The notes under the pieces were generated by a model, which was not told the DNA's origin, ran no database searches, and saw only the letters and a program-made list of their open reading frames with translations. A stretch of DNA of 64,000 bases from Rhodococcus sp. RD6.2 (GTDB lineage Bacteria > Actinomycetota > Actinomycetes > Mycobacteriales > Mycobacteriaceae). Positions within the stretch are counted from its first letter, which is position 1. Each line of letters starts with the position of its first letter. Positions 17,991 through 35,184 of this stretch are shown here, piece after piece. A program made the translations under genes and the position numbers. The stretch is from the NCBI RefSeq assembly GCF_001040705.1, contig NZ_CVQP01000001.1, positions 62,001 through 126,000 on the forward strand, read 5' to 3'.

Positions 17991-18017
17991 ACGGCGCACG
18001 AGCCGTGCGCCGCAGCG

Positions 18018-18695: not shown

Positions 18696-18773
18696 GGAGA
18701 TCCCCATGTGATCAGGCGTTGTTGCACAGGCGAATGGGCGGGGCAGGACCGCGGTGACGGCCCAGCGGGCGTG

Positions 18774-19199: not shown

Positions 19200-19305
19200 G
19201 GCGACTCCCACGGTCGGACGGTTCTCGAGAGGGCTCTCGCTGACACGACGGTGATCCGCGCTGCGCGATTGTCCACGAACCGCGAAACGCGCTGGGACGG
19301 TAGGT

Positions 19306-19321
19306 GACCCTCGTGAGGGTC
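19306..19321. promoter_or_regulatory. Palindrome GACCCTC-GT-GAGGGTC upstream of the Pro-rich gene pair
   Basis: Two perfect 7-base arms lie about 107 bases before the start of the short paralogue. It may be an operator; no regulator is assigned. Confidence 0.35.
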
Positions 19322-19411
19322 GGGCGAAGACAGGGACTGACTTTACTCCGCACAGTGGTGCGGTGCAGGCGAATCGCGCCCGGGCATCGGGGATTGTGAA
19401 GGTGCCCTGAG

Positions 19412-19454
19412 ACGAAGCGGGTCCCGGTCACGACGTGACCGGGACCCGCTTCGT
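19412..19454. terminator. Strong hairpin terminator after the 44-aa gene
   Basis: A near-complete 43-base inverted repeat with core GAAGCGGGTCCCGGTCAC and its complement meets around a tiny loop and begins 10 bases after the stop of the small minus-strand gene at 19465. It may also stop transcripts from the opposite direction. Confidence 0.8.
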
Positions 19455-19464
19455 TGGTTGGGGC

Positions 19465-19599
19465 TCAGGAGCCGCCGAGGCTTCCAAGGCTGCCGAGGCC
19501 GCCCATTCCGCCTCCGCCTCCGCCTTGACCGCCCTGCATCTTCTCCATGACTTCAAGGAGGTCGCCGAGCACCGTTACGAGTTCGCTCAAGAATTCCAT
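19465..19599 (-). CDS. Small Gly-rich protein, 44 aa, no signal peptide
   Basis: ATG 19599 to TGA 19465. An amphipathic N-terminal helix MEFLSELVTVLGDLLEVMEK precedes a Gly/Met/Leu/Ser tail (GGQGGGGGG...GGLGSLGSLGGS). A GAAGG sequence lies upstream and a strong hairpin directly downstream, which argues for a real, possibly abundant transcript. Size and lack of signal peptide recall the small helical porins PorA/PorH of Corynebacterium, but sequence similarity is not evident, so no function is claimed. Confidence 0.6.
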   Translation of the reverse strand: MEFLSELVTVLGDLLEVMEKMQGGQGGGGGGMGGLGSLGSLGGS

Positions 19600-19974
19600 G
19601 GCCGTACACCTTCACTGTCGGGACAAGTGGAGCGTGGGGCGACGGACTGGACGCACCGGACTGCGTGCGCAGTGCGTCCGGTCCTCGCCACCTGGTCGGG
19701 GACGATCGTCATGGGGGAGGCGACCGGCAGGGTGCGGTCGGGGAGTTCTCGAGAATGTGCCGACCGCAGCGGTCGATGTGGAGTTCGGGCATTGGACTCA
19801 CCTCAACCCCGTGTATCGGCGCCCGCAACGATAGTGTTTCACACCACACTCGAGGTGGATGCGGGTTTCGTAGCGGAAGTCGCGGATGGCGGCCCGGCGT
19901 ATCTGCGAACAACTCAGCTCGCGCTTCCACCTTGAAACGAGTGGCGAGTTGTCGTCCGGACCGGAGGTGTCGCG
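19600..19974. other. Intergenic 375 bp upstream of both small genes
   Basis: No convincing gene. It carries the leader or promoter of the 44-aa minus-strand gene, with a compound hairpin at 19649-19679, and the upstream region of the 30-aa plus-strand gene. Confidence 0.5.
19649..19679 (-). promoter_or_regulatory. Compound hairpin in the leader of the 44-aa gene
   Basis: GGACGCAC and GTGCGTCC pair around a second stem ACTGCG-TG-CGCAGT; the two stems overlap, so alternative folds are possible. It lies 50-80 bases before the start codon and might control expression. Confidence 0.35.
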
Positions 19975-20067
19975 ATGCTCGACCTGGAGACGTTCGTCGG
20001 TCCGGTACTCGGTTCGATCATCCGCGAGACAGTGAGATGGCTGATCGAGATCGGGGTCATACGCTGA
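19975..20067 (+). CDS. Very small protein, 30 aa, with ideal ribosome site
   Basis: ATG 19975 follows GGAGG by seven bases and opens a 30-codon frame ending at TGA 20067. The peptide (MLDLETFVGPVLGSIIRETV then RWLIEIGVIR) is strongly amphipathic/hydrophobic, consistent with a single membrane-associated helix. It lies just outside the left att site of the integrated element. Function is unknown. Confidence 0.5.
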   Translation: MLDLETFVGPVLGSIIRETVRWLIEIGVIR

Positions 20068-20103
20068 CGGCGTCGTTCGAGCTGGCCTGGCTGTCCAGGA
20101 AAA

Positions 20104-20123
20104 CCCCGGCAGGAATCGAACCT
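20104..20123. repeat. attL, 20-bp direct repeat of tRNA-Arg 3' end
   Basis: CCCCGGCAGGAATCGAACCT, identical to 35114-35133. Only this fragment of the tRNA is present here; the bases on either side do not continue a cloverleaf. Confidence 0.9.
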
Positions 20124-20263
20124 CCCCGGTGGACGAGCGTCGTCGCTAGTCAAGTGGCATGACCTGCCTGGTCGTCCCTTCGGCTCAGTGACGCAAGCGG
20201 ACACAGTTGGTCACGCGCGTAGCCTTGAAGGGAACGCAGAGGGAACACGGAAGTAGTTCGATC

Positions 20264-21355
20264 ATGGCCACCAAGCGGCGATCGTGGGGCACCTGCAAGC
20301 AGTTGAAGTCCAAGAACTACCGGGCGACCTACATCGGGCCGGATGGACGGCAATACGCGGCCCCCCGCACCTTCGCGGCCAAGGTCGATGCGGAGGGCTG
20401 GCTGGCAACCGAAAAGCGCAAGATTGACCTCGACACCTGGCGCCCGCCCGGCACGCGACATGAGCGCAGCCTGACCCTGCGCGCGTACGCGTCGAGTTGG
20501 CTTGAGCAACGGACCTTGAAAGCGCGCACGCGGGGCCTGTACGCCGATCTGCTGCGACTGCACATCTTGCCCGTGCTGGGTGACCTTGCGGTCTCGGCGA
20601 TTACCCCGGCGATCGTACGAGCCTGGTACGCAAGGCTGGAGACAGGCCCTACCCGGACGTCACACTCCTATTCGCTACTGCACGCGATCTGTGCGACCGC
20701 GGTCTCGGACGAAGTGCTCGACGCGAACCCATGCCGGATCAGGTCCGCAATGCAGACGTCGCGTGCGAAAGAGATAGAACTCGTGACTCCGGCTGAATTG
20801 GTCGCGCTCGCGGACGAGATGCCCGAGAATCTCCGCGTCGCAGTGCTGCTAACCGCGTGGTGCGGTCTGCGCTCGGGTGAGCTCAAGGAGTTGCGCCGCA
20901 AGGATGTGGGGCCGAGGGGCGAGACGATCAGGGTAGAGCGCTCGGTCACGTACCGCAGCGGCGTGTATCTGGTCGACACCCCGAAGACGAGGGCCGGCAA
21001 GCGCAGGATCGCGATACCGCCACACATCGTGCCGGTGTTGAACAGGCACCTTGGCGCGGTCGGCAAGGAGGGCGAGGCGCTGCTGTTCCCCGGTAAGAGC
21101 GGCGGGCACCTGTCCGACTGGGAGCTGCGCAATCCGTTCAAGCGTGCCGCGGGTGCGATCGGCAAGCCTGAGCTGACGCCGCATAGCCTGCGCCACGTTG
21201 GCGCCGTTCTTGCGGCCCAGTCTGGTGCGTCGACCGCTGAGTTGATGTTGAGGCTCGGTCACACCACGCCGAATATGGCGATGAAATACCAGCACGTCGC
21301 GGCTGGCCGTGATGCCGAGATCGCAAAGCGACTGAGTGCGCTGGCGGGGGAGTAG
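20264..21355 (+). CDS. int: Tyrosine recombinase (integrase) of the element
   Basis: Site-specific integrase of 363 aa acting at the tRNA-Arg att sites. An N-terminal arm-binding region (residues 1-60) precedes a SAM-like core-binding domain (about 65-160) and the catalytic domain, with Arg203 (GLRSGE), Lys242, His307-x-x-Arg310 (PHSLRHVG), His333 (LGHTT) and nucleophile Tyr342 (KYQH). All catalytic residues are intact, so the enzyme is probably active. ATG 20264 is preferred; an in-frame GTG at 20207 exists. It lies 140 bp inside attL, the usual place. Confidence 0.93.
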   Translation: MATKRRSWGTCKQLKSKNYRATYIGPDGRQYAAPRTFAAKVDAEGWLATEKRKIDLDTWRPPGTRHERSLTLRAYASSWLEQRTLKARTRGLYADLLRLHILPVLGDLAVSAITPAIVRAWYARLETGPTRTSHSYSLLHAICATAVSDEVLDANPCRIRSAMQTSRAKEIELVTPAELVALADEMPENLRVAVLLTAWCGLRSGELKELRRKDVGPRGETIRVERSVTYRSGVYLVDTPKTRAGKRRIAIPPHIVPVLNRHLGAVGKEGEALLFPGKSGGHLSDWELRNPFKRAAGAIGKPELTPHSLRHVGAVLAAQSGASTAELMLRLGHTTPNMAMKYQHVAAGRDAEIAKRLSALAGE

Positions 21356-21556
21356 GTGGCCACGGCGTGCGATGTCGCAACGCGTCGGGGCGTGACACGC
21401 GCTGGGGCCTGTAGAGTGAGGATGTTGCTCCCCGAGGTGCTGTCCTGTCACCGACGACGGGGAGGGAACGTAGAGCCAGGAATTGTGAAGGCATCCCGGC
21501 GCATCACGGAGACGAACGGTCGGAGTCAGGACGGCCAACGCATCTTCGGAGCCGCG

Positions 21557-21581
21557 CCACAGTAGTAGCTCAATACTGTGG
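21557..21581 (+). promoter_or_regulatory. Inverted repeat at the excisionase ribosome site
   Basis: CCACAGTA and TACTGTGG (8-base perfect arms, 9-base loop) end directly at the GGAGG of the next gene. It may be an operator or an mRNA hairpin limiting excisionase translation. Confidence 0.5.
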
Positions 21582-21588
21582 AGGCTTC

Positions 21589-21819
21589 ATGCCCAAGCGT
21601 TATCTGTCCCTGGCACAAGCCACTGACTACACCGGACTGCACGAGCGGACTCTCCGCCGCCGGATCGCAGACGGCACTCTGCCCGCGTTCCGTTGCGGGC
21701 CGCGACTCATCCGGGTCGATCAGGCCGATCTCGACGGGATGTTCGAGCCGGTCACCTGTACTCGCCGCGGGACAATCAAAGCCGTCACCGAGCGCGTCGA
21801 AGGCGGCGAACTGGCATGA
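21589..21819 (+). CDS. xis: Excisionase-like helix-turn-helix protein
   Basis: A 76-aa MerR/excisionase-type winged helix: YLSLAQATDYTGLHERTLRRRIADGTLPAFRCGPRLIRVDQADLD. The order of helices, the R-R-I-ADG turn and the following wing match excisionases of actinomycete integrative elements, which direct excision with the integrase. ATG 21589 follows GGAGG. Its stop overlaps the next start (ATGA), so the three genes through the prim-pol form one translationally coupled unit. Confidence 0.85.
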   Translation: MPKRYLSLAQATDYTGLHERTLRRRIADGTLPAFRCGPRLIRVDQADLDGMFEPVTCTRRGTIKAVTERVEGGELA

Positions 21820-22133
21820 GCAACAACAAGGGGACGACTCCAAGGACGACATCGAGCACCGTTGTGGGCTTGTCCGCCAGCGCACCCACTGAACGAGAAC
21901 TCAAGAAGGCATACGAGGTGGCGGCGGCCGCGTTGATGAACAACGACGCTGCCCGCAGGTGCTCGCGCTGTGACTGGCGTCCGCGCTTCGGCGAACTATG
22001 GACAGTCGAGTGCATGCACGCCCGACTGCGTGGGATGCACCTGCTCATCTACTCGCTCGTGTGCGACCGCTGCCGCACCGAAGTCGAGACCGCCAGCGCC
22101 AACGATCACCTCGTGGCGGTGATGACGAAGTGA
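21816..22133 (+). CDS. Small Cys-rich protein of the element, possible zinc-binding
   Basis: A 105-aa protein with CSRC near residue 49, a lone Cys in VECMHARL, and CDRC near residue 88, suggesting a structural zinc site. The middle is helical (ERELKKAYEVAAAALMNND). It overlaps both neighbours (ATGA and GTGA), so it belongs to the replication/integration module. Function is unknown; a DNA-binding or replication accessory role is inference from position. Confidence 0.65.
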   Translation: MSNNKGTTPRTTSSTVVGLSASAPTERELKKAYEVAAAALMNNDAARRCSRCDWRPRFGELWTVECMHARLRGMHLLIYSLVCDRCRTEVETASANDHLVAVMTK

Positions 22134-24439
22134 GTTACAGCACGGAGGTGATCGACCGGTACTGGCGCGCAGGCTACTGCCACGTCATGCCGCTGCCGAA
22201 GGGCTCGAAGTCCTCGCCACCGAAGGGCTACACCGGCTACGGGGGTGCGGTGCCGTCGCGTGCGGACTGCGAGGCGTGGATCGAGGGATACCCGGACGGC
22301 AACGTGGCGGTGCGGCTTCCGGGTGTGCCCGGTGACGAGTACGCAGTCATCGGCATCGACGTCGACCACTACGGCGACAAGAGCGGTGCGGTGACCCTCG
22401 CTCACGCCGAGAAGGTCTGGGGCGCACTGCCGCCTACGGTGCGGAGCACAAGCCGGGGAACCGGGAACCCGAGCGGCATCAGGTTGTACAGGGTACCGGC
22501 GGGGGTCGGGTTCGTGACGGTGCTCGCCTTTCGGGAACTGGGGCTCGGTCACATCGAGATCATCCAGTGGTTCCACCGGTACATGGTCGTGTCGCCGTCG
22601 GCTCACCCCAGCGGTGGTGTGTACCAGTGGATCGACGCGGACGGCAAGGTGGTCGACGGTCCGCCGAGTGTCGAGTCTCTGCCGATGCTCCCGGACACGT
22701 GGGTCGAGGGCTTGCGGGCAGGTGCCAGGTCATCGGTGACAACGTCGGTCGCGGACGTGCCGGACATCCTGGCCGGACTGCCGGGCGGCGAACCGAGTGC
22801 GAAGGTGCGGGGGCGGCTCGACGAGGCGATGCGGGATCTCCGTGGGCGGGCGGGCTCCCGACATGATTCGACCCTCAGGCACGTGCTGGCGTTGTTCCGG
22901 CTCGCGGAACAGGGCGCTCCCGGCGTCCCAGCTGCTCTCACGGCGCTCAGCCTGGAGTGGATGCAGGTGATGGGGCCGATCCGGGGCGTCGAGGCCGCAC
23001 AAGCGGAGTGGAACCGCATGGTGTGTGGGCAACGCGGGCACGACCTCCTCGCCTCCACGCCGTCCGCCGATCCGGCAGCCGAGACAGCCGACCTGCTGCG
23101 GCTGGCGGACGACGACGTGACGGTGCTTCCCACCGAGGCCCGATTCTGGACCGCCAGGCCGGAACTGGAACGCATCCAACGGCAGGCCCACGCGAGGGTG
23201 GCCGCTCCGTGGGCGGTGCTCGGTGTCGCACTGTGCCGGGTCGCGGCGCTGATCCCGATCACCGTCGAGCTGCCAGCGATCTCGGGCGGGCCGATGCAGA
23301 CCAACCTGCTCGTCGCGCTGGTCGGCAGGCCCGGCGAAGGCAAGGGCGTTGCAGGCAAGGTCGCGAAGGAGATGATCCCGCTCAACACCACGCTTGTCGA
23401 GGAGACCGGCGGACCCGGCTCGGGTGAGGGCATCACACGCTCGTACGGCCACATGGAGAAGGTCAAGGAGGGGTCTACTGTGGTCGGGATGGGGTGGGTG
23501 TGGCGGAATCCGAACCACGCCAGCCTGTTCTGGGTCGACGAGGTCACACAGTTGAAGACCGTGAGCGCGCGTAGCGGCAACACCGTGGTCGACGTACTGC
23601 GGACGGCCGTCACCGGAGGGAGTCTGAAGGTCGAGTACGCGGACCCCGCAAAGCGCAACGGGTGTGGTGACGGCACCTACCGGTTCGCGGGTGTCATGTG
23701 CGCGCAGCCAACCAATCTCGGGTGGGTCATGGACGATGAGGACGGGGGCCTGCCGCAGCGTGTGCTCTTCTTCAAGGTCATCGACCCGACGATCCCCGAC
23801 CTTGCCGATCCGGTACCGGCGTTCGATCTCGCCTGGCCGGAAACGGTGTACGCCGGCGTGTTTCGGTTTCCCAGTCAGATCGTGGCCGAGATCCGCGCCG
23901 AGCAGCTCAGCATCCGCCGGTACGGGGCGCAGGGGCTGGACGGGCACTCGACGGCAACGCGGATGAAGGTGGCGGCGCTGTTGCGGGTGTTCCACGTGCT
24001 GGCGAACCCGTTGGAGTACGCGGGCCGACCGGACAACCATGCCGAATTGTTCGACGTCACCGCCGAGGACTGGGAACTGGCGGGTGTGGTGATGCGTCAC
24101 TCGGACTCCGTGCGTGCCGAGGTGCAGGCGGCGATCGGCTCGAAAGCCGGACGGGACAACGCCAGCCGGGGGAAGGCCGAGGCAGAGCGGGACCTGGCGC
24201 GAGCCGAGCACCTCGAACGCCACTCCGCCAACCAGGTTGAGGCGAAGCTGCGGAAGGTGTTCGACGGCGGGAAGGAGTTCACCCATCGCGACGTGGCAAG
24301 GCTGTTCGACAGCTCCGCCACCGGGAAGGCTCATCGCTCCGCGATCCCGGGCGTGCTCGTCGACATGGTGGGCCGCGAGGTGCTCGCGGCGGTTTCCCGT
24401 AACCGATCCGGCAAGGCGGTGTACCGGTTGGTGGAGTGA
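22130..24439 (+). CDS. Replication protein: N-terminal prim-pol, C-terminal P-loop ATPase
   Basis: Protein of 769 aa. Residues 1 to about 200 form a bifunctional primase/polymerase domain: the metal motif GIDVDHYGDK, then SRGTGNPSGIRLYRVP, then RYMVVSPSAHPSGGVYQW. The C-terminal part has a P-loop VGRPGEGKGVAGK (about residue 405) and an acidic FWVDEV like DUF3987-type helicases. Such proteins prime and unwind DNA for plasmid-like replication of actinomycete elements. GTG 22130 overlaps the preceding stop. The element may replicate after excision, unlike a simple integron or genomic island. Confidence 0.87.
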   Translation: MSYSTEVIDRYWRAGYCHVMPLPKGSKSSPPKGYTGYGGAVPSRADCEAWIEGYPDGNVAVRLPGVPGDEYAVIGIDVDHYGDKSGAVTLAHAEKVWGALPPTVRSTSRGTGNPSGIRLYRVPAGVGFVTVLAFRELGLGHIEIIQWFHRYMVVSPSAHPSGGVYQWIDADGKVVDGPPSVESLPMLPDTWVEGLRAGARSSVTTSVADVPDILAGLPGGEPSAKVRGRLDEAMRDLRGRAGSRHDSTLRHVLALFRLAEQGAPGVPAALTALSLEWMQVMGPIRGVEAAQAEWNRMVCGQRGHDLLASTPSADPAAETADLLRLADDDVTVLPTEARFWTARPELERIQRQAHARVAAPWAVLGVALCRVAALIPITVELPAISGGPMQTNLLVALVGRPGEGKGVAGKVAKEMIPLNTTLVEETGGPGSGEGITRSYGHMEKVKEGSTVVGMGWVWRNPNHASLFWVDEVTQLKTVSARSGNTVVDVLRTAVTGGSLKVEYADPAKRNGCGDGTYRFAGVMCAQPTNLGWVMDDEDGGLPQRVLFFKVIDPTIPDLADPVPAFDLAWPETVYAGVFRFPSQIVAEIRAEQLSIRRYGAQGLDGHSTATRMKVAALLRVFHVLANPLEYAGRPDNHAELFDVTAEDWELAGVVMRHSDSVRAEVQAAIGSKAGRDNASRGKAEAERDLARAEHLERHSANQVEAKLRKVFDGGKEFTHRDVARLFDSSATGKAHRSAIPGVLVDMVGREVLAAVSRNRSGKAVYRLVE

Positions 24440-24450
24440 AGGCCGCTGGG

Positions 24451-24492
24451 GCAGGCAACTGTCGAGGTGTCGAGCGCTCGACAGTTGCCTGC
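24451..24492. repeat. Long inverted repeat with embedded 16-bp palindrome (possible Rep site or terminator)
   Basis: Perfect 16-base arms (GCAGGCAACTGTCGAG and complement) with a 10-base loop start 12 bases after the prim-pol stop. Inside it, TGTCGAGCGCTCGACA (24468-24483) is itself a perfect palindrome, so two folds compete. A related palindrome lies at 24587-24605. Confidence 0.75.
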
Positions 24493-24586
24493 GCGGTCTC
24501 TCGCGTACATGAAGACACAGATTCATTCATTTATGCAGGTCACGGTATTTTCGGGGGTGACTCACGAGAAGATGGATCTCTCGCAA

Positions 24587-24605
24587 GTGTCGAGACGCTC
24601 GACAC
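24587..24605. repeat. Second TGTCGAG/CTCGACA palindrome
   Basis: GTGTCGAG-ACG-CTCGACAC repeats the core of the palindrome at 24468-24483 about 120 bp away. The DNA between the two contains the only AT-rich stretch of this gap (around 24515-24550), an arrangement that would suit a replication origin or a shared operator. Confidence 0.6.
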
Positions 24606-24718
24606 CTCGACGGTTGGTGAAGGCGCAAAAGGTGCTTGCACTTCACGGGTGAAAGCGCACCCGCTGGCTGTCTATCGAGGCACCTCACCCTGCGCTCGGT
24701 ATCGAGTACTTTCTGAAT

Positions 24719-27700
24719 TCACAGCGAGTCGACGATCTTCATCGTCTCAACGGCCACCGTGGTGACACGTTTGATGAGGTCGACGATATAGGTGGGGTCG
24801 TCGTGTTCGTCGCACCAGTCGTTAGGGTCATTGATGATCTCTGACGCCTTGTCGGTCTTGACCTGGTAGCGGTCGATGATCCACGCCAACGCTGAGCGGG
24901 GCCCGAGCATGTAGCGTTCGGCATTCTCGGGGATACCGGCGATGGTGACCTTCGGGTTGTAAACGATCGTGGTGCGGTCGTCGACATTCTTACCGGTGTC
25001 CGGGTCCTTCTTCTTGCCCCACTTGAGCTTCGACAGCCGCCACGTCTCACGATCCTCCGCGGAAGCGCCCTTCTTCAACTGCACGTCGAGGCCGTACGGC
25101 TCGACTGCCTCGTAGTTCACGTGCAGGTCCGCCAACTTCCGGCCAGCGGCAGCGAGCTGCTCGAAACGTTCCCATGTCTCTGGTGTGGGGATGTGCGGGA
25201 GCATCTTCTTCAGATCCGCCGCGTAGGTTTCGCGATAGGCGGAGTCGTGGAGCAGGCCGTACACGTAGTAGAAGATGTCGTCCTTGCTGACCTGCTCGCC
25301 GAGCGCGCTGCGGTACAGCGCGAGGATGCCGTCGGTGATGTTGTCCACACGGCGGTAGCCGTACTTGTCAATCTCGTCCGAATCACTCGATGCGAAGTCC
25401 AACTCACCCTCGGCCGATTCAGACTTGAGATAGATCCAGCGGGGGAAGAACTGGCCGGTATCGAGCAGGTGCAGGTTCGGCAGCAGATCGGTGATGAACG
25501 GCGTGAACTCAAAATGAGACGCCGGCGCTGTCAGCACGATCCCGAGGTTCCGGTGGTGCGGCGTGGGGAACATCACGGGGAGCTGGTAGGTGCAGTTGTT
25601 GAGTTGCTGCCTTTCATCGAAGTAGGCGTGTTGTTTGGTGAATGGCCTGTAGGTGCTGAAGCGGAATCCCGCCTGCTGCGTGACGAGCCGAATGCTTTGG
25701 GCGACTTGCCTCTTGTTGATTCTGTCCCAGCTGAACAGCTTGGGGTTGGTGGAGATGAGTGAGTCAACTGGAGGAAGGGCGGTGGTCGAGGCCCGGATGG
25801 AATCGATGCGATCAACCTCAGAGTTATAGAAGTCAACCGCACGGCCGATGTTGTTTTCGAGCCCGGTGCGCGAGAAGTTGTAGCACCACGCATCGCGGTT
25901 TGTCTTCAGCCCACCGGAATAGGTACTGAACATGGCGTATCGACCGGTGCTCGACTTCTTGTCCCCGATCGCAGGCCACTGCCTAAATTCGTCGTTGCGT
26001 TGGTTGGTCCAGTCGCCGTGCTCATTTGGCACGATGTGGCGCAGCTGTAGCCCGTTGAAGCTGCCAGCGTCCGTGATGGCGCGGATCTTCTGGCCCGCGG
26101 ACAGGTAGTCGCCGACCTGTGCGTAATGAATGGTGCCCGGTTTGGACTCTTTCGAATTCTTGACAAGCAGTGTGATTGCGATGGTGGCGCGGGAGCCGCC
26201 TTTAGTGCTCTTGATCTCGTTGCCGTCAGGGCCCCACCCGCCGAATTCGAAGATCGGTCTGCCTTCCTTGCGGCCGAGCTCGCCTGCGATACGTCCGTTG
26301 CCGCGGAGGTTGTAGATGTAGATGCGGGAGCATTCGTCGGCGAGGGAGAGGCGGATGCCGTCGGCGGTGTTGCCATCGATCCAGCCGCCGTTGGTCACGA
26401 AGGCGACGATCCCGTTGTCGCCGATCCGGTCGGTGGCCCACCTGAAGGCGCGTAGATAGGAGTCGTAGAGGCTGTTCTTAAGTTGCGCGGTGGAGCGTTT
26501 GGCGTAGGTGTCGGCGATCCGCTTGTCCAGGGTCGGGTAGGAGACGTTCGCGTTGAGATCGTTCGCGGAGGTTTGGCCGACGCTGTAGGGCGGGTTGCCG
26601 ATGACGATGTTGATCGGGATCGAGTTCTGGCGGACGATACGGTCGTTGTTCTGGGGGAACATCACCGCGTCGAGGCTGTCGCCGTCCTCGGTGATCTGGA
26701 AGGTGTCGGCGAGCACGATCCCCTCGAAAGGGCTGTATTCAGCTTCGCCTTCGCTGCCGATGATCGCGTGGTAGGTGGATTCGATGTTCACCGCCGCGAT
26801 GTAGTAGGCCAGGAGCATGATCTCGTTGGCGTGCAACTCGCCCGCATATTTCCGGGCCAAGTCGGCCGGCTGGATGAGCCCGGACTGCAGCAGCCGGGTC
26901 ATGAACGTGCCGGTGCCGGTGAACGGATCGAGGATGTGGACGCCTTCGTCGGTCAGGCCGCGGCCGAACGCATCCCGGGACGCCTGGTCGGCAGCGTGGA
27001 GGATGAAGTCGACGATCTCGACGGGGGTGTAGACGATGCCGAGGGCCTCGGACTGCTTCTTAAATCCGATGTGGAAGAACTTCTCATACAGCTCGGCGAT
27101 CACCTTCTGCTTGCCGCCAGCAGTGGTGACCTCTGCGGCCCGCACGCGCACGGATGCGTAGAAGCCGTCGAGCTTCGCTGTTTCGGCTTCGAGGCCTGAG
27201 TCCCCGAGTGTGTCGACCATCGCCTGCATGACCTGAGAGATCGGGTTGTGGGAGGCGAAGTCGTGTTCGACGAACAGAGCGTCGAACACCGGCTTGGTGA
27301 TCAGATGCTGCGACAACATGCTGATCGCATCATCTCGGGTGATGGAGTCGTTCAGGTTGTCCTTCAGGCCCTGATGGAACTGCTCGAACGCCGTCGCGAC
27401 CTCGGGGGTCGAGCCGGCGAGGAGAGCGCGGATGCGGGTGATTTGAGCATTGGCGATGTCGGCGACGTCAGTGGCCCAGTCTTCCCAGTACTTGCGGGTG
27501 CCGACCTTGTCGACGATCTTCGCGACGATCGCTTCCTGCCACTCCGACAGGGAAAACAGCGCCATCTGTTGCGCCATGTGCCCACCGGAATCCGGTGCAG
27601 ACTCGGCAGTTTCGGGTGAGGTGCTGGATGTGCTGGATGTGCCGTCGCTGAAGGTTTCGTCGGAATTCGTGACCGGGCCGATGTGGTCGCCGAGGAGCCG

Positions 27701-29695
27701 GTCGGTTCCCTTGCCTGCCTTCATATCGGACTTGGCGTTGAGGGCGATGGAATTGACCATCGCGTTGAACCGGTCGTCATGCGCGCGCAGGGCGTTGAGG
27801 ACCTGCCAGACCACCTTGAACCGGCGGTTGTCCGAGAGTGCCTGCGACGGTGAGATACCAGCCGGGACGGCGACCGGCAGGATGATGTAGCCGTAGTCCT
27901 TGCCGTCGGCCTTGCGCATCACCCGGCCCACCGACTGCACGACGTCGACCACGGAATTGCGGGGGTTGAGGAACATCACCGCATCCAGAGCCGGCACGTC
28001 CACGCCTTCGGACAGGCAGCGGGCGTTGGTCAGGATCCGGCACTCCCCCTCCGGGACCGGCGCTTTGAGCCAGGCGAGTTCGGCGTTGCGCTGCAGAGCG
28101 TTGAAGGTGCCGTCGACATGGTGGACAGAGCACGCGAGATCAAGGTTCGTCGACGACACCGCGTGCCCGTCGTTCTCGTTCTCCGCGAGCAGGTCACGGT
28201 AGGCGTCCACCACGGAGGGGAACACCTCGGCTACCTGCTTGGAGGCGGCGATGTCCTTCGCGAACACCACTGCCCGCCGCATCGGTGCCTCACCGGGAGC
28301 GAAGCCGGTGCCGTCGGGGGTGCGACCGGCGCGCTTGGCCAGGCCGTTCCAGCAGCCGACGATCTTCGACGCATCATCGAGCCGCAGCTCGGAGAACTCG
28401 CCCGCCAACTGCTGCTGCAGCGGGGAGGCGACGAGGTCCTCGTCGACGGTCAGCACGATCACCTTGTAGTCGGTGAGCAGACCACGCTCGACCGCGTCCC
28501 CGAACGACAGGCGATGAAACTCGGGACCGTAGATGGTTTCGTCGTCCATCGACGACAGTTCCGCCGAATGCTCGTCGGCCTTGTCCTTGACCGTCTCGTC
28601 GAAGATCCGCGGGGTCGCCGTCATGTAGAGGCGGCGTTCGGATTTGAGGTAGTCGGCGTCGTGGACGCGGACGAAGTTCGACTCGTCGTCGCCGAACAGA
28701 GTGACACCGGTGGTGCGGTGTGCTTCGTCGCAGATCACGATGTCGAACGGGTCCACACCCTGTGTCTGCGCCGCCGCGACGACCGGGAGCGACTGGTAGG
28801 TGGTGAATACCACCGTCAACCCTTTGGCGCGTTTGCGGTGACCCATCTCGGCGACCAGGGTCGCGGCATCGGTGGTGACGGGGATGGCGACGTCGTGGAC
28901 CGCGACGTCCTCCGCCGAGCGGGAGACTTTGGTGTCCGAGCAGACCGCGAACGCCCGCAGCTCGAGCTGGGTTTGCGCGGTCCACTCCCGCAGCGTCTGC
29001 GACAGCAACGAGATGGACGGCACCGCGAACAGGACCTTCGCGCTCCCGCCGTTCTCGGCGGCGGTGCGCTCGGCGATCTTCATGGCGGTGAACGTCTTGC
29101 CGGTGCCGCACGCCATGATCAGCTTGCCGCGGTCGTTGCCGGCCTCAAACCCGGCGAACACCGCGTCGATCGCGTCCTGCTGATGGGTGCGCGGCTCGTG
29201 CCGCTTCGCCTCCGACAGGTCGACCTGTAGTTCGCCGGCCGGCCAGGCGATGTCCCAGTCGATCGGCGACTCCGCGATCTCCGCGAGCCCGATCCGCTGC
29301 ACCGGGATCGACTGCCCATCGAGGGCGTCCTCGGCGTTCTTCCCCCACCGGTCGGTAGTGGAGATGATCACCCGGTTCGTGAACGGCTTCTTCCCCGACG
29401 CGGTGAAGAACGAGTCGATGTCGCCCTTGGCGAGGGTGTGGGTCGGCTCGTAGAACTTGCACTGGATCGCGGTATAGGCGCCGGTGTCGCGTTCGCGAGC
29501 GACGAGGTCGATGCCAGTGTCCGGCTTCCCGTCGCGGCCGGGCCAGTCCGTCCACCGCCACACCTGGTCGTACTGCTGCGCGAGCATCGGGTCCAGTTGG
29601 AAGTAGCGGACCATCAGCTGCTCGAACTTGGTGCCCCGTTCCGAGTTCGACGGTGCCTGCCGGAACGCCTCGATGACCTCGTGAACAGAACCCAT
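24719..29695 (-). CDS. Type ISP restriction-modification enzyme (Mrr nuclease, helicase and N6-adenine methylase in one chain)
   Basis: A 1658-aa protein that should both methylate and cut DNA. Domains in order: Mrr-like PD-(D/E)xK nuclease (PDTGIDLV then QCKFY, Asp63/Lys80); SF2 translocase with MACGTGKT (about 195), CDEAH (about 315) and TATPRI; helicase C-terminal part (SVGRVMRK); coupler; gamma-type adenine methylase with DPFTGTGTF and NPPYSVGQ; and a C-terminal target-recognition region. LlaGI and LlaBIII have the same order at about 1570-1580 aa. All key motifs are intact. Being single-chain, it needs no specificity subunit. A 395-aa protein precedes it by 69 nt on the same strand. Confidence 0.92.
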   Translation of the reverse strand: MGSVHEVIEAFRQAPSNSERGTKFEQLMVRYFQLDPMLAQQYDQVWRWTDWPGRDGKPDTGIDLVARERDTGAYTAIQCKFYEPTHTLAKGDIDSFFTASGKKPFTNRVIISTTDRWGKNAEDALDGQSIPVQRIGLAEIAESPIDWDIAWPAGELQVDLSEAKRHEPRTHQQDAIDAVFAGFEAGNDRGKLIMACGTGKTFTAMKIAERTAAENGGSAKVLFAVPSISLLSQTLREWTAQTQLELRAFAVCSDTKVSRSAEDVAVHDVAIPVTTDAATLVAEMGHRKRAKGLTVVFTTYQSLPVVAAAQTQGVDPFDIVICDEAHRTTGVTLFGDDESNFVRVHDADYLKSERRLYMTATPRIFDETVKDKADEHSAELSSMDDETIYGPEFHRLSFGDAVERGLLTDYKVIVLTVDEDLVASPLQQQLAGEFSELRLDDASKIVGCWNGLAKRAGRTPDGTGFAPGEAPMRRAVVFAKDIAASKQVAEVFPSVVDAYRDLLAENENDGHAVSSTNLDLACSVHHVDGTFNALQRNAELAWLKAPVPEGECRILTNARCLSEGVDVPALDAVMFLNPRNSVVDVVQSVGRVMRKADGKDYGYIILPVAVPAGISPSQALSDNRRFKVVWQVLNALRAHDDRFNAMVNSIALNAKSDMKAGKGTDRLLGDHIGPVTNSDETFSDGTSSTSSTSPETAESAPDSGGHMAQQMALFSLSEWQEAIVAKIVDKVGTRKYWEDWATDVADIANAQITRIRALLAGSTPEVATAFEQFHQGLKDNLNDSITRDDAISMLSQHLITKPVFDALFVEHDFASHNPISQVMQAMVDTLGDSGLEAETAKLDGFYASVRVRAAEVTTAGGKQKVIAELYEKFFHIGFKKQSEALGIVYTPVEIVDFILHAADQASRDAFGRGLTDEGVHILDPFTGTGTFMTRLLQSGLIQPADLARKYAGELHANEIMLLAYYIAAVNIESTYHAIIGSEGEAEYSPFEGIVLADTFQITEDGDSLDAVMFPQNNDRIVRQNSIPINIVIGNPPYSVGQTSANDLNANVSYPTLDKRIADTYAKRSTAQLKNSLYDSYLRAFRWATDRIGDNGIVAFVTNGGWIDGNTADGIRLSLADECSRIYIYNLRGNGRIAGELGRKEGRPIFEFGGWGPDGNEIKSTKGGSRATIAITLLVKNSKESKPGTIHYAQVGDYLSAGQKIRAITDAGSFNGLQLRHIVPNEHGDWTNQRNDEFRQWPAIGDKKSSTGRYAMFSTYSGGLKTNRDAWCYNFSRTGLENNIGRAVDFYNSEVDRIDSIRASTTALPPVDSLISTNPKLFSWDRINKRQVAQSIRLVTQQAGFRFSTYRPFTKQHAYFDERQQLNNCTYQLPVMFPTPHHRNLGIVLTAPASHFEFTPFITDLLPNLHLLDTGQFFPRWIYLKSESAEGELDFASSDSDEIDKYGYRRVDNITDGILALYRSALGEQVSKDDIFYYVYGLLHDSAYRETYAADLKKMLPHIPTPETWERFEQLAAAGRKLADLHVNYEAVEPYGLDVQLKKGASAEDRETWRLSKLKWGKKKDPDTGKNVDDRTTIVYNPKVTIAGIPENAERYMLGPRSALAWIIDRYQVKTDKASEIINDPNDWCDEHDDPTYIVDLIKRVTTVAVETMKIVDSL

Positions 29696-29764
29696 GACTT
29701 GGCCAACCTCCGCAGCAGCAACCGATACCGGGGTGACACTACTGTCCTTCCTGCCGATGGGCAG

Positions 29765-30952
29765 TTAGGGTGCGCCTGATATGCCCGTCAGGTCGTTCAA
29801 TGCGGAACTTGTGTCGGTCGCCGTCAATCGATTCGGGGCACGCTTCTCCTCCTGTCGGTCAAGGATCCGATCCGTCAACTCCACTGTTGCGAGGTACCAC
29901 CAGAAGAGCCAGTCGCGGAAGGCAGGATCGTAGTCACCTTGCTGCTTACCGTCTTCATGCCTGACCGCGAACTTGTTCGCAATGTGGAACAGGGCCGACT
30001 CGTCGTCTTTGAGCAGCTCTGCTTTCAACAGTTGCCGTCGCTCTTCGAGCACGAGGGCCAGGGCATTCGCCGCCGAACGCTTGTCGTGATCGGTCGCTCC
30101 GCGAGCGCGGAACAAGGTGATGGCATGCCGTATCCGGCCTCCGGTCCGCGGATCATCCCGGGTGAGCATGTCAGTGACCAGGTCCGTCCGTGCGTCGTCG
30201 GTCACCTCAACAAGCCTGCCCGTGTCTTCGCCGTTGTCGGCGAGCCGGAGATCGATACTGCTGCGGTCGAGGAGTCGGTTGACGCGCCAGATGTACAGTT
30301 GTCGACCGGCCGATCGGGAGAACTCGCTGTAATGCCAGCCGCAGCCCGAGTAAGGGTGAAGGTCGCGGTTGCGTGGCCTGGCGACCAGGTCGTGCAGAAC
30401 TTCGATCAGGTCGAAGAACCTGTCGGTGTCCGCAGCGAGCCGTTTCGGGTCGATCGGCCACATATCCGGAATACCGATGTGCGTCTCAATCAGACCAGAC
30501 GGATCAACGGTTGCCGGATCGTCGACACAGTCCTTCGTGAATGCATGCTCGAAGTATCCCTTTCGGTCGAGTTCGTCGATCAGTCGACCGAACTCACGCG
30601 TGGTTGCCTCGATCGTCAGCGCACGGGGTACGACGCCAGCGTTGCGTTCAGACCAGTACGCCGGCCGCTCTCTCGGCTCCGGAAATGAGTCGAGGTGTCG
30701 GAGGATTTCCGCCATGAACTGCCTTCGCTGATCTACTCTGGCGCCACCAGATCTGTGCCAGCTTTCGCTGGAGATCGAAGCGAAGTGATCACGTGCTGCG
30801 AAGTCGGCGAAGGCATCCTCGAGAAGCAATTCAACGCGTTGTGCCCATTCCTGACTTCCAACGTCAGCATTTATTAGTGCAGAAAGTTCAGATCTGAGCA
30901 GCTCGCGTGGCCAGATCAGCTCGAAATCCAAAGGGTTCACGGTGACGGTCAT
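29765..30952 (-). CDS. Unknown 395-aa protein upstream of the Type ISP enzyme
   Basis: No family was recognised. The protein is acidic, mostly helical and soluble, beginning MTVTVNPLDFELIWPRELLRS. Notable segments are DLVARPRNRDLHPYSGCGWHYSEFS and a C-terminal helical region ELLKDDESALFHIANKFAVRH. It ends 69 nt before the Type ISP start on the same strand, so it is probably co-expressed; an anti-restriction, accessory or separate defence role cannot be decided. ATG 30952 is chosen because the upstream extension has different codon character; no Shine-Dalgarno sequence is visible, so translation may be leaderless. Confidence 0.7.
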   Translation of the reverse strand: MTVTVNPLDFELIWPRELLRSELSALINADVGSQEWAQRVELLLEDAFADFAARDHFASISSESWHRSGGARVDQRRQFMAEILRHLDSFPEPRERPAYWSERNAGVVPRALTIEATTREFGRLIDELDRKGYFEHAFTKDCVDDPATVDPSGLIETHIGIPDMWPIDPKRLAADTDRFFDLIEVLHDLVARPRNRDLHPYSGCGWHYSEFSRSAGRQLYIWRVNRLLDRSSIDLRLADNGEDTGRLVEVTDDARTDLVTDMLTRDDPRTGGRIRHAITLFRARGATDHDKRSAANALALVLEERRQLLKAELLKDDESALFHIANKFAVRHEDGKQQGDYDPAFRDWLFWWYLATVELTDRILDRQEEKRAPNRLTATDTSSALNDLTGISGAP

Positions 30953-31245
30953 AATCGCAAATGATGCCCGACGGCAGGGACATGACCGCGAGGCGGCGCT
31001 CTCGTCCAACTGAAAGAACGACGATGCGAACGCAACCTTCAATCAGTCTCAGGTTCGTGGCGGCCATAGCTTGCTCCGTTTAGGGCGTTCATTTGAACGA
31101 TCCCTGCGGGTGGCTGCGTGTTGGCCATCGGACGGCTTGAGGGTGGGGGGAGGGGCGCGTCCGAACGGCTGGAGTGCGGTGGCCCACCCAGTGTAGGCCG
31201 CTTCTCTCCCTGGTTGAAAATTGAACCAAGGGGGCGGATGCCGCA

Positions 31246-31401
31246 ATGTCAGGGTTTGACGAGTACGTGCAACGGTTCATCGGGATGACCGAGGCGCCGC
31301 CGATGGAAGCTTCGCCCAGTTTCGCCAGTCGTCGCGACCGGACTGGCAGGCGCGGACTGCTGTGGAACGAATCACCGGCGCACGGCCGTCCTGCTACCTG
31401 A
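31246..31401 (+). CDS. Possible small protein or gene remnant, 51 aa
   Basis: ATG 31246 to TGA 31401. The first 20 residues (MSGFDEYVQRFIGMTEAPPM) have coding-like character, then the sequence becomes Arg/Ser-rich. It may be the start of a truncated gene. No family was recognised. Confidence 0.25.
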   Translation: MSGFDEYVQRFIGMTEAPPMEASPSFASRRDRTGRRGLLWNESPAHGRPAT

Positions 31402-31796
31402 TGGGGCGAGCCTGGGCGGGTGTACGACATCAGCGCATTCTCGATTGCGGTGCGCAGGTCCGGGCCGACACGATCGCTTTCCGTGGTTCGGTCGGCGGGA
31501 ACAGGTCAGCGAAGAACGGCCCGTTGGTGATGTTCCAATTGTCCAGGGCGTGGTTGCTCAGTCTCGTTCGGCGTCACATCAGTGCGGATCAAGGTGAGTC
31601 GAAGCGGTGGATACCAACGCGTCGACGGCGAGGAGCCAAACCGGTACCGGGATAGGTGGTCTGCGATCGGCGCGAAGCGCTCGGTCAGGTGATTCGGATC
31701 GCCGCCGCCGCGCCCGAATCGTTGCACCGGTAGGGCGCGTGCCGGTACGCAGCCCCTAAACCCCTCGTTGTGCTGTCGATGGTAGAGAGTGATCCC
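31402..31796. other. Intergenic 395 bp, no clear gene
   Basis: Frames here lack ribosome sites and consistent codon bias. It probably holds the promoter of the AlbA_2 gene at 31797 and perhaps debris from an earlier gene. Confidence 0.4.
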
Positions 31797-33050
31797 ATGG
31801 ACTTCACCGCGATCCACCGCCTGCTCGGTCGGGAACCAGGACCCATCACCGACGAGTTGCTCGACGCCGCCGTCGAGAACGGAGTCAAGGAAACCGACGA
31901 CCTGGACTGGAAGTCCGAACTCCCACCGGCCAAAGCGCTGCAGTCCACGGACTATCCGAAGGACATTGCCGCGATGGCCAACAGTGGTGGTGGCACGATC
32001 ATCTACGGGATCGAGGAGTCGCAGAAGGCGGCAATCAAGCGACTCGACGTCGGGGAGCTCACCGAAACCCACGAACGGGCGCTGCGAAGTGCAGCCGTGA
32101 CAGCGATCAGTCCGCCGATCTTTGGACTGGGTATTCGTGAGGTTGGTAACCCCGGAAGAAGAGCGGTAGCCGTTTTGGTCCCGGCGAGTGCAGACGGTCC
32201 TCACCTCATCTACAGGAACGAGTACTTCGGGGCACCGATCCGCAACGACGCAGACACCGTGTGGATGAAAGAGCGTCAGATCGAAGCCATGTATCGGGCA
32301 CGGTTTGACGAGCGCCGCCACGAGGCAGAAGCGCTCGCGAATCTCTACCGCGACGCGGCCTCTGGCAGAGACACCAACCAGCGCGCCTGGTTCATCGCTG
32401 TGGCGTCCCCACGTCTGCCTGCCTCCCAGCCCGTTCGTCCACCGCGTGGCCAGGCTGGCGAGATTTTCGAGGCGGCACTCGTCCACGGCGTCTACTTCGC
32501 CGGCCGAGGCGGGATCCATCCGCTTGAGGCAGTAGATCGCCTCAATCCACGACCCGGACTGCGCCGTTGGGTCGCAGCGAACACTGCAGAATCGCAACAC
32601 TCTCGATGGAAAGAGTCGTGGGCGAGCTGTCATCACGACGGGGCTGTCACCCTTGCTACCGCCGTTGGCGGGCATCCATCGGGGCCAAACCAAAACAATC
32701 CCGGGGAACGCATCGACTCCTCGGCGATCGAGTGCGCCATTGCCGACCTCATGGGCTTGATCCGTGCGGTGAGCGAACGACGAGGCACGAACGAGTACGA
32801 CGTGAGAATCGGGATTGAGTGGACCGGCGGGGCGCCCATGATCATCCAGACGGTCGACAACTCCGGGTACGTTTACGACGGGACGTCCCTTCCTCTCGCA
32901 CGATACAACCCGGTGGTGGTGACAGTCCGCGCGGACGCCGACAGCCTCGACTACTACCAACAGGTCCACGATCTTGCCGAGGATTGCATCAACCAGGGTG
33001 GACTTACCAATGTTCGGTTGATCAGCCCGCCGTCTCCGAATGACACCTAG
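31797..33050 (+). CDS. AlbA_2/Schlafen-domain protein, 417 aa
   Basis: The N-terminal 140 residues match the AlbA_2 (Schlafen AAA_4) domain: DDLDWKSELPP, then PKDIAAMANSGGGTIIYGIEE, and a later GRRAVAVLVPAS. This domain is found in human SLFN nucleases and many bacterial regulators and defence proteins, where it may act as a nuclease. The C-terminal 270 residues are not recognised and contain no visible helicase motif. ATG 31797 is chosen; ATG 31779 is possible. It is convergent with a second AlbA_2 gene, the stops lying 12 bases apart. Confidence 0.75.
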   Translation: MDFTAIHRLLGREPGPITDELLDAAVENGVKETDDLDWKSELPPAKALQSTDYPKDIAAMANSGGGTIIYGIEESQKAAIKRLDVGELTETHERALRSAAVTAISPPIFGLGIREVGNPGRRAVAVLVPASADGPHLIYRNEYFGAPIRNDADTVWMKERQIEAMYRARFDERRHEAEALANLYRDAASGRDTNQRAWFIAVASPRLPASQPVRPPRGQAGEIFEAALVHGVYFAGRGGIHPLEAVDRLNPRPGLRRWVAANTAESQHSRWKESWASCHHDGAVTLATAVGGHPSGPNQNNPGERIDSSAIECAIADLMGLIRAVSERRGTNEYDVRIGIEWTGGAPMIIQTVDNSGYVYDGTSLPLARYNPVVVTVRADADSLDYYQQVHDLAEDCINQGGLTNVRLISPPSPNDT

Positions 33051-33062
33051 CGTTCAGGCTCG

Positions 33063-34337
33063 TCAGCTCAGCAATTCCTTATGCTGATAGTCGCTGAGTA
33101 CCTCGTCGGTGGCCATGAAGCCGAATCCTTGGAGGAGCGTCTTTGCCATTCGCACGGCGAGTGCGCCTGGATCGGTGAGCAACTCCGATACCGGAAGATC
33201 TATCAAGGTGGTGAGGGTGGAGTCGCTGGTTCGGTAATCGTCGTGGAGGTGGCGTTTGGGATCGTCGGATACGAGGAGGCGGCCGGCAGCGCCGCGCAAG
33301 GTGGCCTGCACGGTCATCCCCATCGGGGTGATCATCGACTGAGACAAGCGTGCTGCGAGTTCGACGACCTCGGTCAAGTAGAACAGGATCTCCCAGACAG
33401 GGATCTGATCAGGCTTCCCGATAAGGTCATATGTCAGCACGCGGCGGTGCAGAAACTGACCGGAGGTAAAGAGCCGCCATTGCTCCTCGTGCGGTGTGTT
33501 CCTCACCGGGATGTCGCAGCCGATATATGACTGTCCGTTGAGCATCTCCGCGTGGCCGATGTAGGGGACTGGCCATCCGCGCAGGCGCACTGTCGATTGT
33601 GCCAACACAGTTTCGAGCGCGTCGCGGTCGAGGCGGTCTGCCTCGTATGGCTGCGGTCGAATGACGATGTCCCAATGGCCGAGCTGGCGCCGGGCGTACT
33701 CGTTTACGGCCAACCAACTCTCGGACTCGCGATCGTAGGCTTCGGTGGAGCGCGTGGCCGCGTCTATGGGCTGCAGCTGGAGTCCGGCGCTTTGTGCTGT
33801 CGCCACGAACTCACGAAGCGCGTTCTGGGTGGCGATTGTGAGGACTTCGCGCATCTCCACATGGGAGGCCACTTCGCTGGTCTCCGGCTTGCTGCGATTG
33901 CGAACGTATAGAGCACCTTTTCGCAATACTTCTTCCTTGCCTTCGTTGTACGCCTTTGCACAAAGGTGCGGCAGGTCGGTAAAGCTGTGGAGTTGGAGCA
34001 CCGTTACATGCGCGCCGCTGGTCAGCTCCACAGCAGCGACATCGAAGCTCAACGGTGGATCGGCGTAGGTCGCAAATTTGCTCGACAGGTCGTCGAAGTT
34101 GGTCCACTCGGAAACCTGATCTTCCGTGAGCCCCCGGAGGATTAGCGTGTCGTTCACCTCGCCGACGCCGAGCACGACATATCCGCCGTCGCGCAGATTT
34201 GCCATGCTCAACGCTGCTCGGACAATCTTCGCGAAGTAGTATTTATTCGTCGCGCTGCCGGGACCCTTGAACTCGACACTGCGAGTCTCGTGTCCGATGT
34301 CTGCAATGTGCTGCTCGATTTCGGTCGCTGTCAACAT
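33063..34337 (-). CDS. Second AlbA_2/Schlafen-domain protein, 424 aa
   Basis: The N-terminal domain has ETRSVEFKGPGS, the helix KIVRAALSMANLRDGGYVVLGVGEV and a VTVLQLHSF strand, all expected for AlbA_2. The rest (residues 170-424) is unrecognised. It differs from the protein at 31797 outside the domain, so the two are not recent duplicates. It is less GC-biased than the core genes, consistent with acquisition. The role is likely regulatory or antiviral; neither can be shown from sequence. Confidence 0.75.
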   Translation of the reverse strand: MLTATEIEQHIADIGHETRSVEFKGPGSATNKYYFAKIVRAALSMANLRDGGYVVLGVGEVNDTLILRGLTEDQVSEWTNFDDLSSKFATYADPPLSFDVAAVELTSGAHVTVLQLHSFTDLPHLCAKAYNEGKEEVLRKGALYVRNRSKPETSEVASHVEMREVLTIATQNALREFVATAQSAGLQLQPIDAATRSTEAYDRESESWLAVNEYARRQLGHWDIVIRPQPYEADRLDRDALETVLAQSTVRLRGWPVPYIGHAEMLNGQSYIGCDIPVRNTPHEEQWRLFTSGQFLHRRVLTYDLIGKPDQIPVWEILFYLTEVVELAARLSQSMITPMGMTVQATLRGAAGRLLVSDDPKRHLHDDYRTSDSTLTTLIDLPVSELLTDPGALAVRMAKTLLQGFGFMATDEVLSDYQHKELLS

Positions 34338-34433
34338 GCTCGATGACGCTACCGGCGACCATCCTCCGCTCTCCCCCTATACCGGGCTGCCTGCTCAGAT
34401 CAGAACCCATCCATCCCGGACCGGGGGACGAGA

Positions 34434-34776
34434 TGGGGCAGGCGGTGTGCCCGCGCTCGGGACTTGATTTCGGGGTGGGCCGCCCGGCGATCGTGGATTT
34501 CGAGGCGGCCGTCAACGCGGCTATCGACGAAGCCCCTCGAACATTGATCGTCGACGTGGCCCGCGTGGACTTCGTGCGCATGTCGGGTGTCCAGGCCCTG
34601 GCGGAGGCGCACATCGCGCCGACCGCATGGGGGTGGCGACGCTGCTCGTGCCGGGCGGGCGGACGTTCCGTCGGGTGATTAGGGCCGCAGGCTTGGCGAA
34701 CCACTTCCCGGTTCCCAGTCCATACAGGCGGCGGTGGAGGCGCGTCGAGCCGGGTTGGCCGCGCATGTCGACCTAG
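34434..34776 (+). pseudogene. STAS-domain (anti-sigma antagonist) pseudogene with two frameshifts
   Basis: Three fragments together spell one STAS domain. Frame 1 gives VDFEAAVNAAIDEAPRTLIV...VRMSGVQALAEAH; the next frame from about 34615 gives RMGVATLLVPGGRTFRRVIR and AAGLANHFPV; then the first frame resumes at about 34719 with SIQAAVEARRAGLAAHV. The two shifts compensate each other. Phosphorylatable Ser of the STAS fold is in RMSGVQAL. The upstream part looks degraded too, so the gene is probably dead or assembly-damaged. Confidence 0.65.
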
Positions 34777-35110
34777 AGGTACAGATAGGTGAACGACGCA
34801 ATTGGTGGTGCTATCGGGTGTGTTGAGATTTAACGTTGCGGAACGCCAATTTCGCGAGATGATCCGCGTGCGTCGTGGTGACACACTGACGTCGAAGGCG
34901 TCCAGTGGATGTCCTGCTGCCAGCTTTGATCGCGACGCTCCGATGGCTGAGTCAGGGTGGAATGCCTGCGCCTCGCTGAGTGAGCGACGGGTTCCGTACC
35001 TCGGGCGAGACACTCTCCGCGGTGTCGGATCTCTTAGTTGGAGGGAATCTTGAGGGAACGGCTGTCTCGCGTTTTCGGCAAACTGCCCTGTTGAGCTGCT
35101 AAAACTACCG
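34777..35110. other. Right-end intergenic region of the element, 334 bp
   Basis: No gene could be supported. Short frames have no ribosome sites. It contains the DNA next to attR, where integrase arm sites might lie. Confidence 0.4.
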
Positions 35111-35184
35111 TGCCCCCGGCAGGAATCGAACCTGCGACCTAGAGATTAGAAGGCTCTTGCTCTATCCAACTGAGCTACGGAGGC
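35111..35184 (-). tRNA. tRNA-Arg (anticodon TCT)
   Basis: A full cloverleaf: acceptor GCCTCCG/CGGGGGC with one G-T pair, D stem GCTC/GAGC, anticodon loop CTTCTAA, and T arm GCAGG-TTCGATT-CCTGC. One C-T mismatch closes the anticodon stem. The 3' CCA is not encoded. Its 3' end is the attachment site of the 15 kb element and remains intact after integration. Confidence 0.95.
35114..35133. repeat. attR, 20-bp direct repeat within tRNA-Arg
   Basis: Identical to 20104-20123; it covers the T loop and 3' acceptor strand of the tRNA. Confidence 0.9.

Follow-up and report, generated by a model that had tools for sequence, protein, structure and literature searches.

What kind of mobile DNA occupies a tRNA gene with an integrase and a replication protein of its own, and with neither a recognisable transfer gene nor a capsid gene? 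This question is raised by a 64,000-nucleotide stretch of Rhodococcus sp. RD6.2 (contig NZ_CVQP01000001.1, positions 62,001 to 126,000; hereafter the window, in whose own numbering coordinates are given), where a preliminary description had placed a complete tRNA-Arg integrative element, either a satellite or a mobilisable island. According to our analysis, and with a probability that we put at roughly 60%, the element is a capsid-less, defence-carrying relative of the phage-satellite-like elements of Mycobacteriaceae known as candidate phage-inducible chromosomal islands (PICIs).

Insertion site and core genes

The element is 15,010 bp long, as set by two identical 20-bp repeats (CCCCGGCAGGAATCGAACCT) that form the attachment (att) cores attL at 20104-20123 and attR at 35114-35133; the window holds no third occurrence of this core at up to three mismatches. 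attR lies inside a tRNA-Arg gene (anticodon tct; 35110-35184, minus strand), whose 3' end appears from the att geometry to be supplied by the element, and attL is a perfect copy of part of that 3' end. The perfect repeats reported earlier were thus recovered, and the integration was corroborated by the search for an empty site in other genomes: in the congener G001, the counterparts of 18015-19856 and of 35110 onward adjoin with 66 bp between them (82.8% and 89.5% identity in the pieces adjoining the site), which is a near-empty tRNA-Arg site and supports insertion. The same right-hand chromosomal neighbour follows the tRNA in all five congeners compared, and the prim-pol gene of the element is present in one of six genomes of the genus, namely that of RD6.2. 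In 1-kb bins, the G+C content is 0.59-0.68 inside the element and mostly 0.66-0.71 outside, with a few outside bins down to 0.64.

Four genes run rightward from the left end. The tyrosine integrase gene int (20207-21355, plus strand, with a start at 20207 or 20264) has no internal stop, and its product matches PF00589 (3.8e-16) and phrog_1 (6e-55). It is followed by xis for an excisionase-like HTH_17 protein (21589-21819, plus strand; TIGR01764), by an orphan gene for a 105-aa Cys-containing protein with no match above cut-off in family-profile scans (21816-22133, plus strand), and by the gene for a 769-aa prim-pol/ATPase replication protein (22130-24439, plus strand), which matches PF09250 (1.2e-15) and phrog_11515 (1e-100), and in its second half phrog_28894. 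The overlaps, ATGA at 21816-21819 and GTGA at 22130-22133, are confirmed in the sequence, so both the intact integrase, excisionase and prim-pol/ATPase cassette and the three overlapping genes stand as first described. The further claim of replication after excision holds as far as the replication gene goes; replication itself is deduced from that gene, and no origin was established. Intergenic inverted repeats follow prim-pol at 24451-24616 and might represent an origin or a two-way terminator. TGTCGAG iterons were rejected as an origin here because a 7-mer present four times within a 160-bp bin is also met elsewhere in the window (17 of 3192 bins, two of them at this place); the corresponding shuffle test required five copies, one above the non-overlapping count, and its 0/1000 is uninformative.

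Both core enzymes lean towards phages. The prim-pol protein is 38.8% identical over 91% to gp57 of Gordonia phage TinyDot, and its matches comprise 268 phage records versus four plasmid records, the latter each covering at most 53% of the protein. Integrase homologues number 1417 among phage records, the best at 45%, and 146 among plasmid records, where the best listed stands at 40.5%; the latter include NC_006910 of Micromonospora rosaria at 39.6%, presumably the actinomycete integrative and conjugative element (AICE) pMR2. Together with a 69% identity to the integrase of a Nocardia element, these figures speak against AICEs, with which the preliminary description had compared the element, as the nearest comparison.

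Integrase kinship, end motifs and capsid genes

In a tree of 50 integrases, that of the window is sister to one from Nocardia acidivorans (69% identity, support 100/99). The two loci under which this relative was collected, L112 and L053, are the same place in the same 10,085-bp element, with genes for int, xis, prim-pol, an ATPase, a protease-capsid fusion (phrog_10, phrog_80) and a regulator-like gene; its xis product is 54% identical to that of the window, and its prim-pol 43% identical to the N-terminal half. The term satellite, one of the two offered earlier, fits in that the closest integrase comes from a 10-kb element with a capsid gene; packaging by a helper is its deduced part. Pairing of int (at least 50% identity) with prim-pol was seen in L053 and L057 only, among 12 prim-pol places examined.

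The two elements also share an end motif. RRGGAAY-N4-RRGGAAY occurs twice in the 64 kb, as AGGGAACGCAGAGGGAAC (20229-20246, plus strand) 105 bp inside the left core and as AGGGAATCTTGAGGGAAC (35042-35059, plus strand) 72 bp inside the right core; 0.03 occurrences were expected in the window and two copies arose in 0 of 100 shuffles, a statistic that is post hoc since the motif was first spotted by eye at these ends. The Nocardia element has the motif pair at both ends. None of the 20 other att-bounded elements tested shows it at either end, and no match was seen in the tRNA regions of six further relatives. Twelve of 258 loci matched, eight of them being copies of the window, the Nocardia place and a place in the congener G003, while the other four (L157, L159, L164 and L169) are more distant relatives with one copy each, on the opposite strand, 0.1-0.7 kb before the integrase. 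On sequence grounds, the paired motifs are probably arm-type sites of the integrase. In G003, one copy lies 70 bp from the tRNA core with no second core and is likely left over from a related element. Beside the same tRNA-Arg of G003, together with this lone pair, stand about 4.6 kb of DNA unmatched to the window (L016:13645-18291); the place may be a hotspot for insertion within the genus.

At E <= 1e-40 the integrase was found in 107 of 401 genomes of the family. In a first set of 18 loci, window included, 17 had tRNA-overlapping repeats, at spacings of 2.7-15.0 kb. None is longer than the window element, and tRNA-Arg is the site of 11 others. The capsid family PF05065 was present within the int elements of 9 of 22 relatives and absent from those of seven, six more being on contigs that end too soon; one of the seven, L103, carries another capsid type (phrog_1650) with a scaffold protein. 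The terminase PF03354 matched in 6 of 23 genomes, and within one such element (G222). A second set of 54 loci, overlapping the first, comprised 44 of 80 integrase relatives, 6 of 43 viral-contig relatives, three more and the window, and its capsids were called with custom profiles at E <= 1e-5. Here 22 loci including the window were att-bounded, and 14 of the 21 others had a capsid-profile match (sizes 3.7-11.0 kb). Integrase relatives also occur among viral contigs (best 57%).

The RD6.2 element itself gave no match in the capsid-profile search, and neither capsid PF05065 nor large terminase PF03354 matched at E <= 0.01 anywhere in the genome, which extends the earlier statement that capsid genes are missing. 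When nine window proteins were scanned, PHROG returned no structural or lysis family and Pfam no relaxase domain; the annotated open reading frames (ORFs) of the element leave no gap above about 730 bp.

Some other loci were recorded beside these sets. L057:6640-9047 (G212) holds int (51%) and prim-pol; some 1 kb ahead of the integrase, on the opposite strand, there is a STAS-like match (34%), and a STAS-like ORF also lies near the far end of the window element. L137:9789-16761 (Mycobacterium sp. GA-0227b) is a 6.9-kb tRNA-Arg element with int and xis, a G+C content of 0.57, no recognised capsid and a DUF6414 protein among its cargo, and is perhaps another cargo-type member. L061 (MT835972, 14.4 kb, an unannotated 'Bacteriophage sp.' from human faeces) encodes an integrase 46% identical to that of the window and may be a small element of satellite type. 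In L095 and L124, proteins of 404-407 aa resemble capsids by eye and were rejected as such, being unsupported by profile comparison.

Cargo, altered left end and competing explanations

About two thirds of the element (24719-34337, about 10 kb) is defence-type cargo, a bulk that the preliminary description had left out. The largest gene (24719-29695, minus strand) encodes a 1658-aa protein with PF13156, PF04851, PF22240 and PF18135 above cut-off and the methylase families PF07669/PF02384 just below, and PADLOC assigned REase_MTase_IIG at 2428 bits along the whole chain. By its full domain set in one chain, from Mrr nuclease through helicase, coupler and methylase to the C-terminal specificity domain, it is a predicted Type ISP restriction-modification (R-M) enzyme. 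Its plasmid homologues reach 74-76% in the best eight of 852 records (Nocardia, Rhodococcus), with four records in the 80-90% band, and phage records gave two full-length matches at 39%. These two, OR846882 and OR848216 (about 11 kb each, named Listeria phage), may be satellites or islands rather than phages. In Phycicoccus elongatus (L142:9971-19074), a related integrase (47%) lies close to an xis-like gene, to a Type ISP gene (51%) and, by eye, to an Mrr-type nuclease. The locus has no prim-pol and gave no att repeats, so we keep it only as a parallel case in which this integrase family is paired with a Type ISP enzyme.

Next to the R-M gene lies that of a candidate defence protein (29765-31042, minus strand; 395-425 aa), which fits phrog_20667 and shows a weak similarity to PDC-S32, the latter shared by all four homologues scanned. 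It occurs in 16 of 401 family genomes, RD6.2 included, and at 39-44% in the best eight of 35 plasmid matches; phage records gave no match despite the phrog_20667 fit, no meaningful solved relative was found, and neither the protein nor the four homologues match Pfam. This protein and part of the Type ISP enzyme match PHROG families without assigned function. Two Schlafen AlbA_2 domain proteins (both PF04326) are encoded at 31770-33050 (plus strand; 63% to Streptomyces plasmid genes) and 33063-34337 (minus strand). The STAS-like ORF at 34343-34678 (plus strand) is weak, falling below the Pfam cut-off, seems by eye to continue in another frame and is probably a broken remnant. The element seems to combine a core of phage type with cargo such as is often found on plasmids.

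If the element is a satellite relative, its integrase would bind the paired AGGGAA motifs and recombine the tRNA core, and together with Xis it would excise a 15-kb circle, which the prim-pol/ATPase would copy. Particles of an outside helper phage would then carry the DNA; an outside helper is proposed because neither the element nor the rest of the genome has a PF05065 or PF03354 match, and there seems to be no resident helper of these types. In the host, the R-M enzyme, and perhaps other cargo too, would block phages and so pay for the upkeep of the element. We infer excision, replication, packaging and defence activity alike from the gene content.

Several findings weigh against this reading. 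The element shows no recognisable gene for a capsid, a terminase, redirection or packaging, so its satellite life cycle is argued from kinship, and the relatives of its cargo are located on plasmids. A capsid-profile match is likewise missing from 7 of the 21 others that are att-bounded, and on the integrase tree the capsid label requires two changes, a number reached by 66 of 500 shuffles and thus not significantly clustered (30 rows unlabelled). The ATPase of the Nocardia element has no match to the window, so the ATPase halves differ. At E <= 1e-20, as many as 71 of the 401 genomes of the family have prim-pol homologues (best N-half matches 47%), and single-protein queries of IMG/VR found no relative. 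Finally, attL carries AAAA at the position of GTGC and the tRNA 3' end is not duplicated, which speaks against present mobility.

This left end sets the element apart from the 11 other tRNA-Arg elements, in which the duplicated stretch extends to the tRNA 3' end, with GTGC before the C-run in ten and TGCGC in L095. When the window flanks were joined as by excision, ARAGORN still drew a tRNA-Arg(tct), in which the acceptor stem ends in C-U and G-U and the discriminator is U. Without the tRNA 3' end in the left att, the acceptor stem would thus be mispaired after excision, which would presumably be costly through a failing tRNA, and the present copy may no longer leave cleanly. The element was described as complete, which is right for its repeats and core genes and not for its left att, which is altered, so that clean excision may not restore the tRNA. 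G001 likewise has no counterpart of the 247 bp that precede the left repeat (19857-20103); against 200 other genomes this stretch gave only short matches (at most 56 bp) in eight, and against phages none. Either the left end was remodelled after insertion, with these 247 bp adjoining, or the site decayed. Further left (18018-19211) stand two similar neighbouring Pro-rich ORFs with signal-peptide-like starts, and similar DNA is found in congeners.

The altered att, the mispaired joined tRNA, the unmatched 247 bp and the apparently broken STAS-like ORF would all suit a former satellite that has become immobile and is kept only for phage defence. We consider such a fixed defence island unlikely: the reading frames of int, xis and prim-pol are uninterrupted, the two 20-bp cores are identical and each end has an arm motif. 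The same left end allows a second, quite improbable idea. Four other genome matches of the tRNA region were found, two at tRNA-Arg genes (ccg, cct) and one at tRNA-Thr/Met genes, the fourth falling outside the tRNA part of the query; a second tRNA-Arg(UCU) gene in the genome is unlikely (15 of 284 first-look candidates scored). The element might then supply the 3' end of apparently the only tRNA-Arg(UCU), the spare in attL being gone; precise Int/Xis excision would break the acceptor stem and cells losing the element would die, while the element could still be copied and packaged. If true, this would be an addiction mechanism with neither toxin nor antitoxin. The altered tRNA end makes it possible to test directly how islands of this kind come to be fixed.

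Movement by conjugation has to be weighed as well. A TrwC-type relaxase lies on another contig of the same genome (G000:C13:74746-75978, in a 1877-aa open frame), possibly a plasmid, and it is this gene that brings conjugative mobilisation into consideration. The element could be a mobilised island or an AICE derivative whose TraB was lost or never present, moved with the help of a conjugative plasmid in the same cell or through transfer of the chromosome and replicated by prim-pol after excision; its plasmid-like cargo and the integrase homologues in plasmid records, NC_006910 among them, would agree with this. However, there was no match inside the element to FtsK (PF01580) or to the two relaxase families searched in six frames, TrwC (PF08751) and PF03432, a relaxase being what an integrative and mobilisable element (IME) would carry, in line with the earlier statement that it carries no transfer gene, and the integrase is closer to phages and to capsid-bearing elements, as prim-pol is to phages. 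We give this route a small probability. A defective prophage stripped of structural genes would agree with the phage-type int and prim-pol and with the PHROG matches in two cargo proteins. It is nonetheless highly improbable, for most att-bounded relatives span 7-11 kb, less than a full prophage would need, and the nine scanned proteins hold no structural or lysis family.

Comparison with known systems

Like AICEs (PMC3218068), the window element combines an integrase and a Rep/Prim-Pol protein with tRNA integration; unlike them, it has no FtsK/SpoIIIE-type or TraB translocase (PF01580 search inside the element), and its integrase and prim-pol are closer to phages. AICE membership was rejected on these two grounds. 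The R-M enzyme resembles LlaGI and other Type ISP enzymes (PMC4666363) in uniting nuclease, helicase-like ATPase, coupler, methylase and recognition domains in a single chain, and differs from LlaGI in sitting on an integrative element.

Defence cargo is known in P4-like satellites (PMC9122126), which likewise join a satellite core to variable anti-phage cargo, and the phage-inducible chromosomal minimalist islands (PICMIs; PMC10803314) likewise have no capsid-remodelling genes. Both differ in their hosts, enterobacterial and Vibrionaceae, respectively, and cargo makes up most of the window element. In Actinobacteria, one survey says, experimental validation lags (PMC10023795), and helper-satellite systems of Streptomyces have been reported (PMC10690885). 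Within a partial coverage of the literature, no report, by title or abstract opening, described a capsid-less, defence-loaded member of this actinobacterial lineage. The element ties the dissemination of defence genes among Actinobacteria to phage satellites.

The closest comparison is with the Mycobacterium candidate PICIs, including phiRv1/phiRv2, which were selected by an integrase plus a major capsid gene and some of which lie at tRNA genes (PMC10654092). The window element has the integration machinery (int, xis and att) and shares with them the tyrosine integrase, at a tRNA as in some of theirs, the att junctions and, with some, the replication genes; its integrase is moreover sister to that of a capsid-bearing Nocardia element. 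Unlike these candidates, it has no major capsid gene and carries about 10 kb of defence-type genes, and the module of capsid and terminase of their own that marks capsid-forming PICIs (cfPICIs) is absent. The integrase kinship and the shared end motifs indicate that the same lineage includes a capsid-less form filled with restriction and defence genes, and the integrase-plus-capsid selection rule, as given in PMC10654092, would miss such elements.

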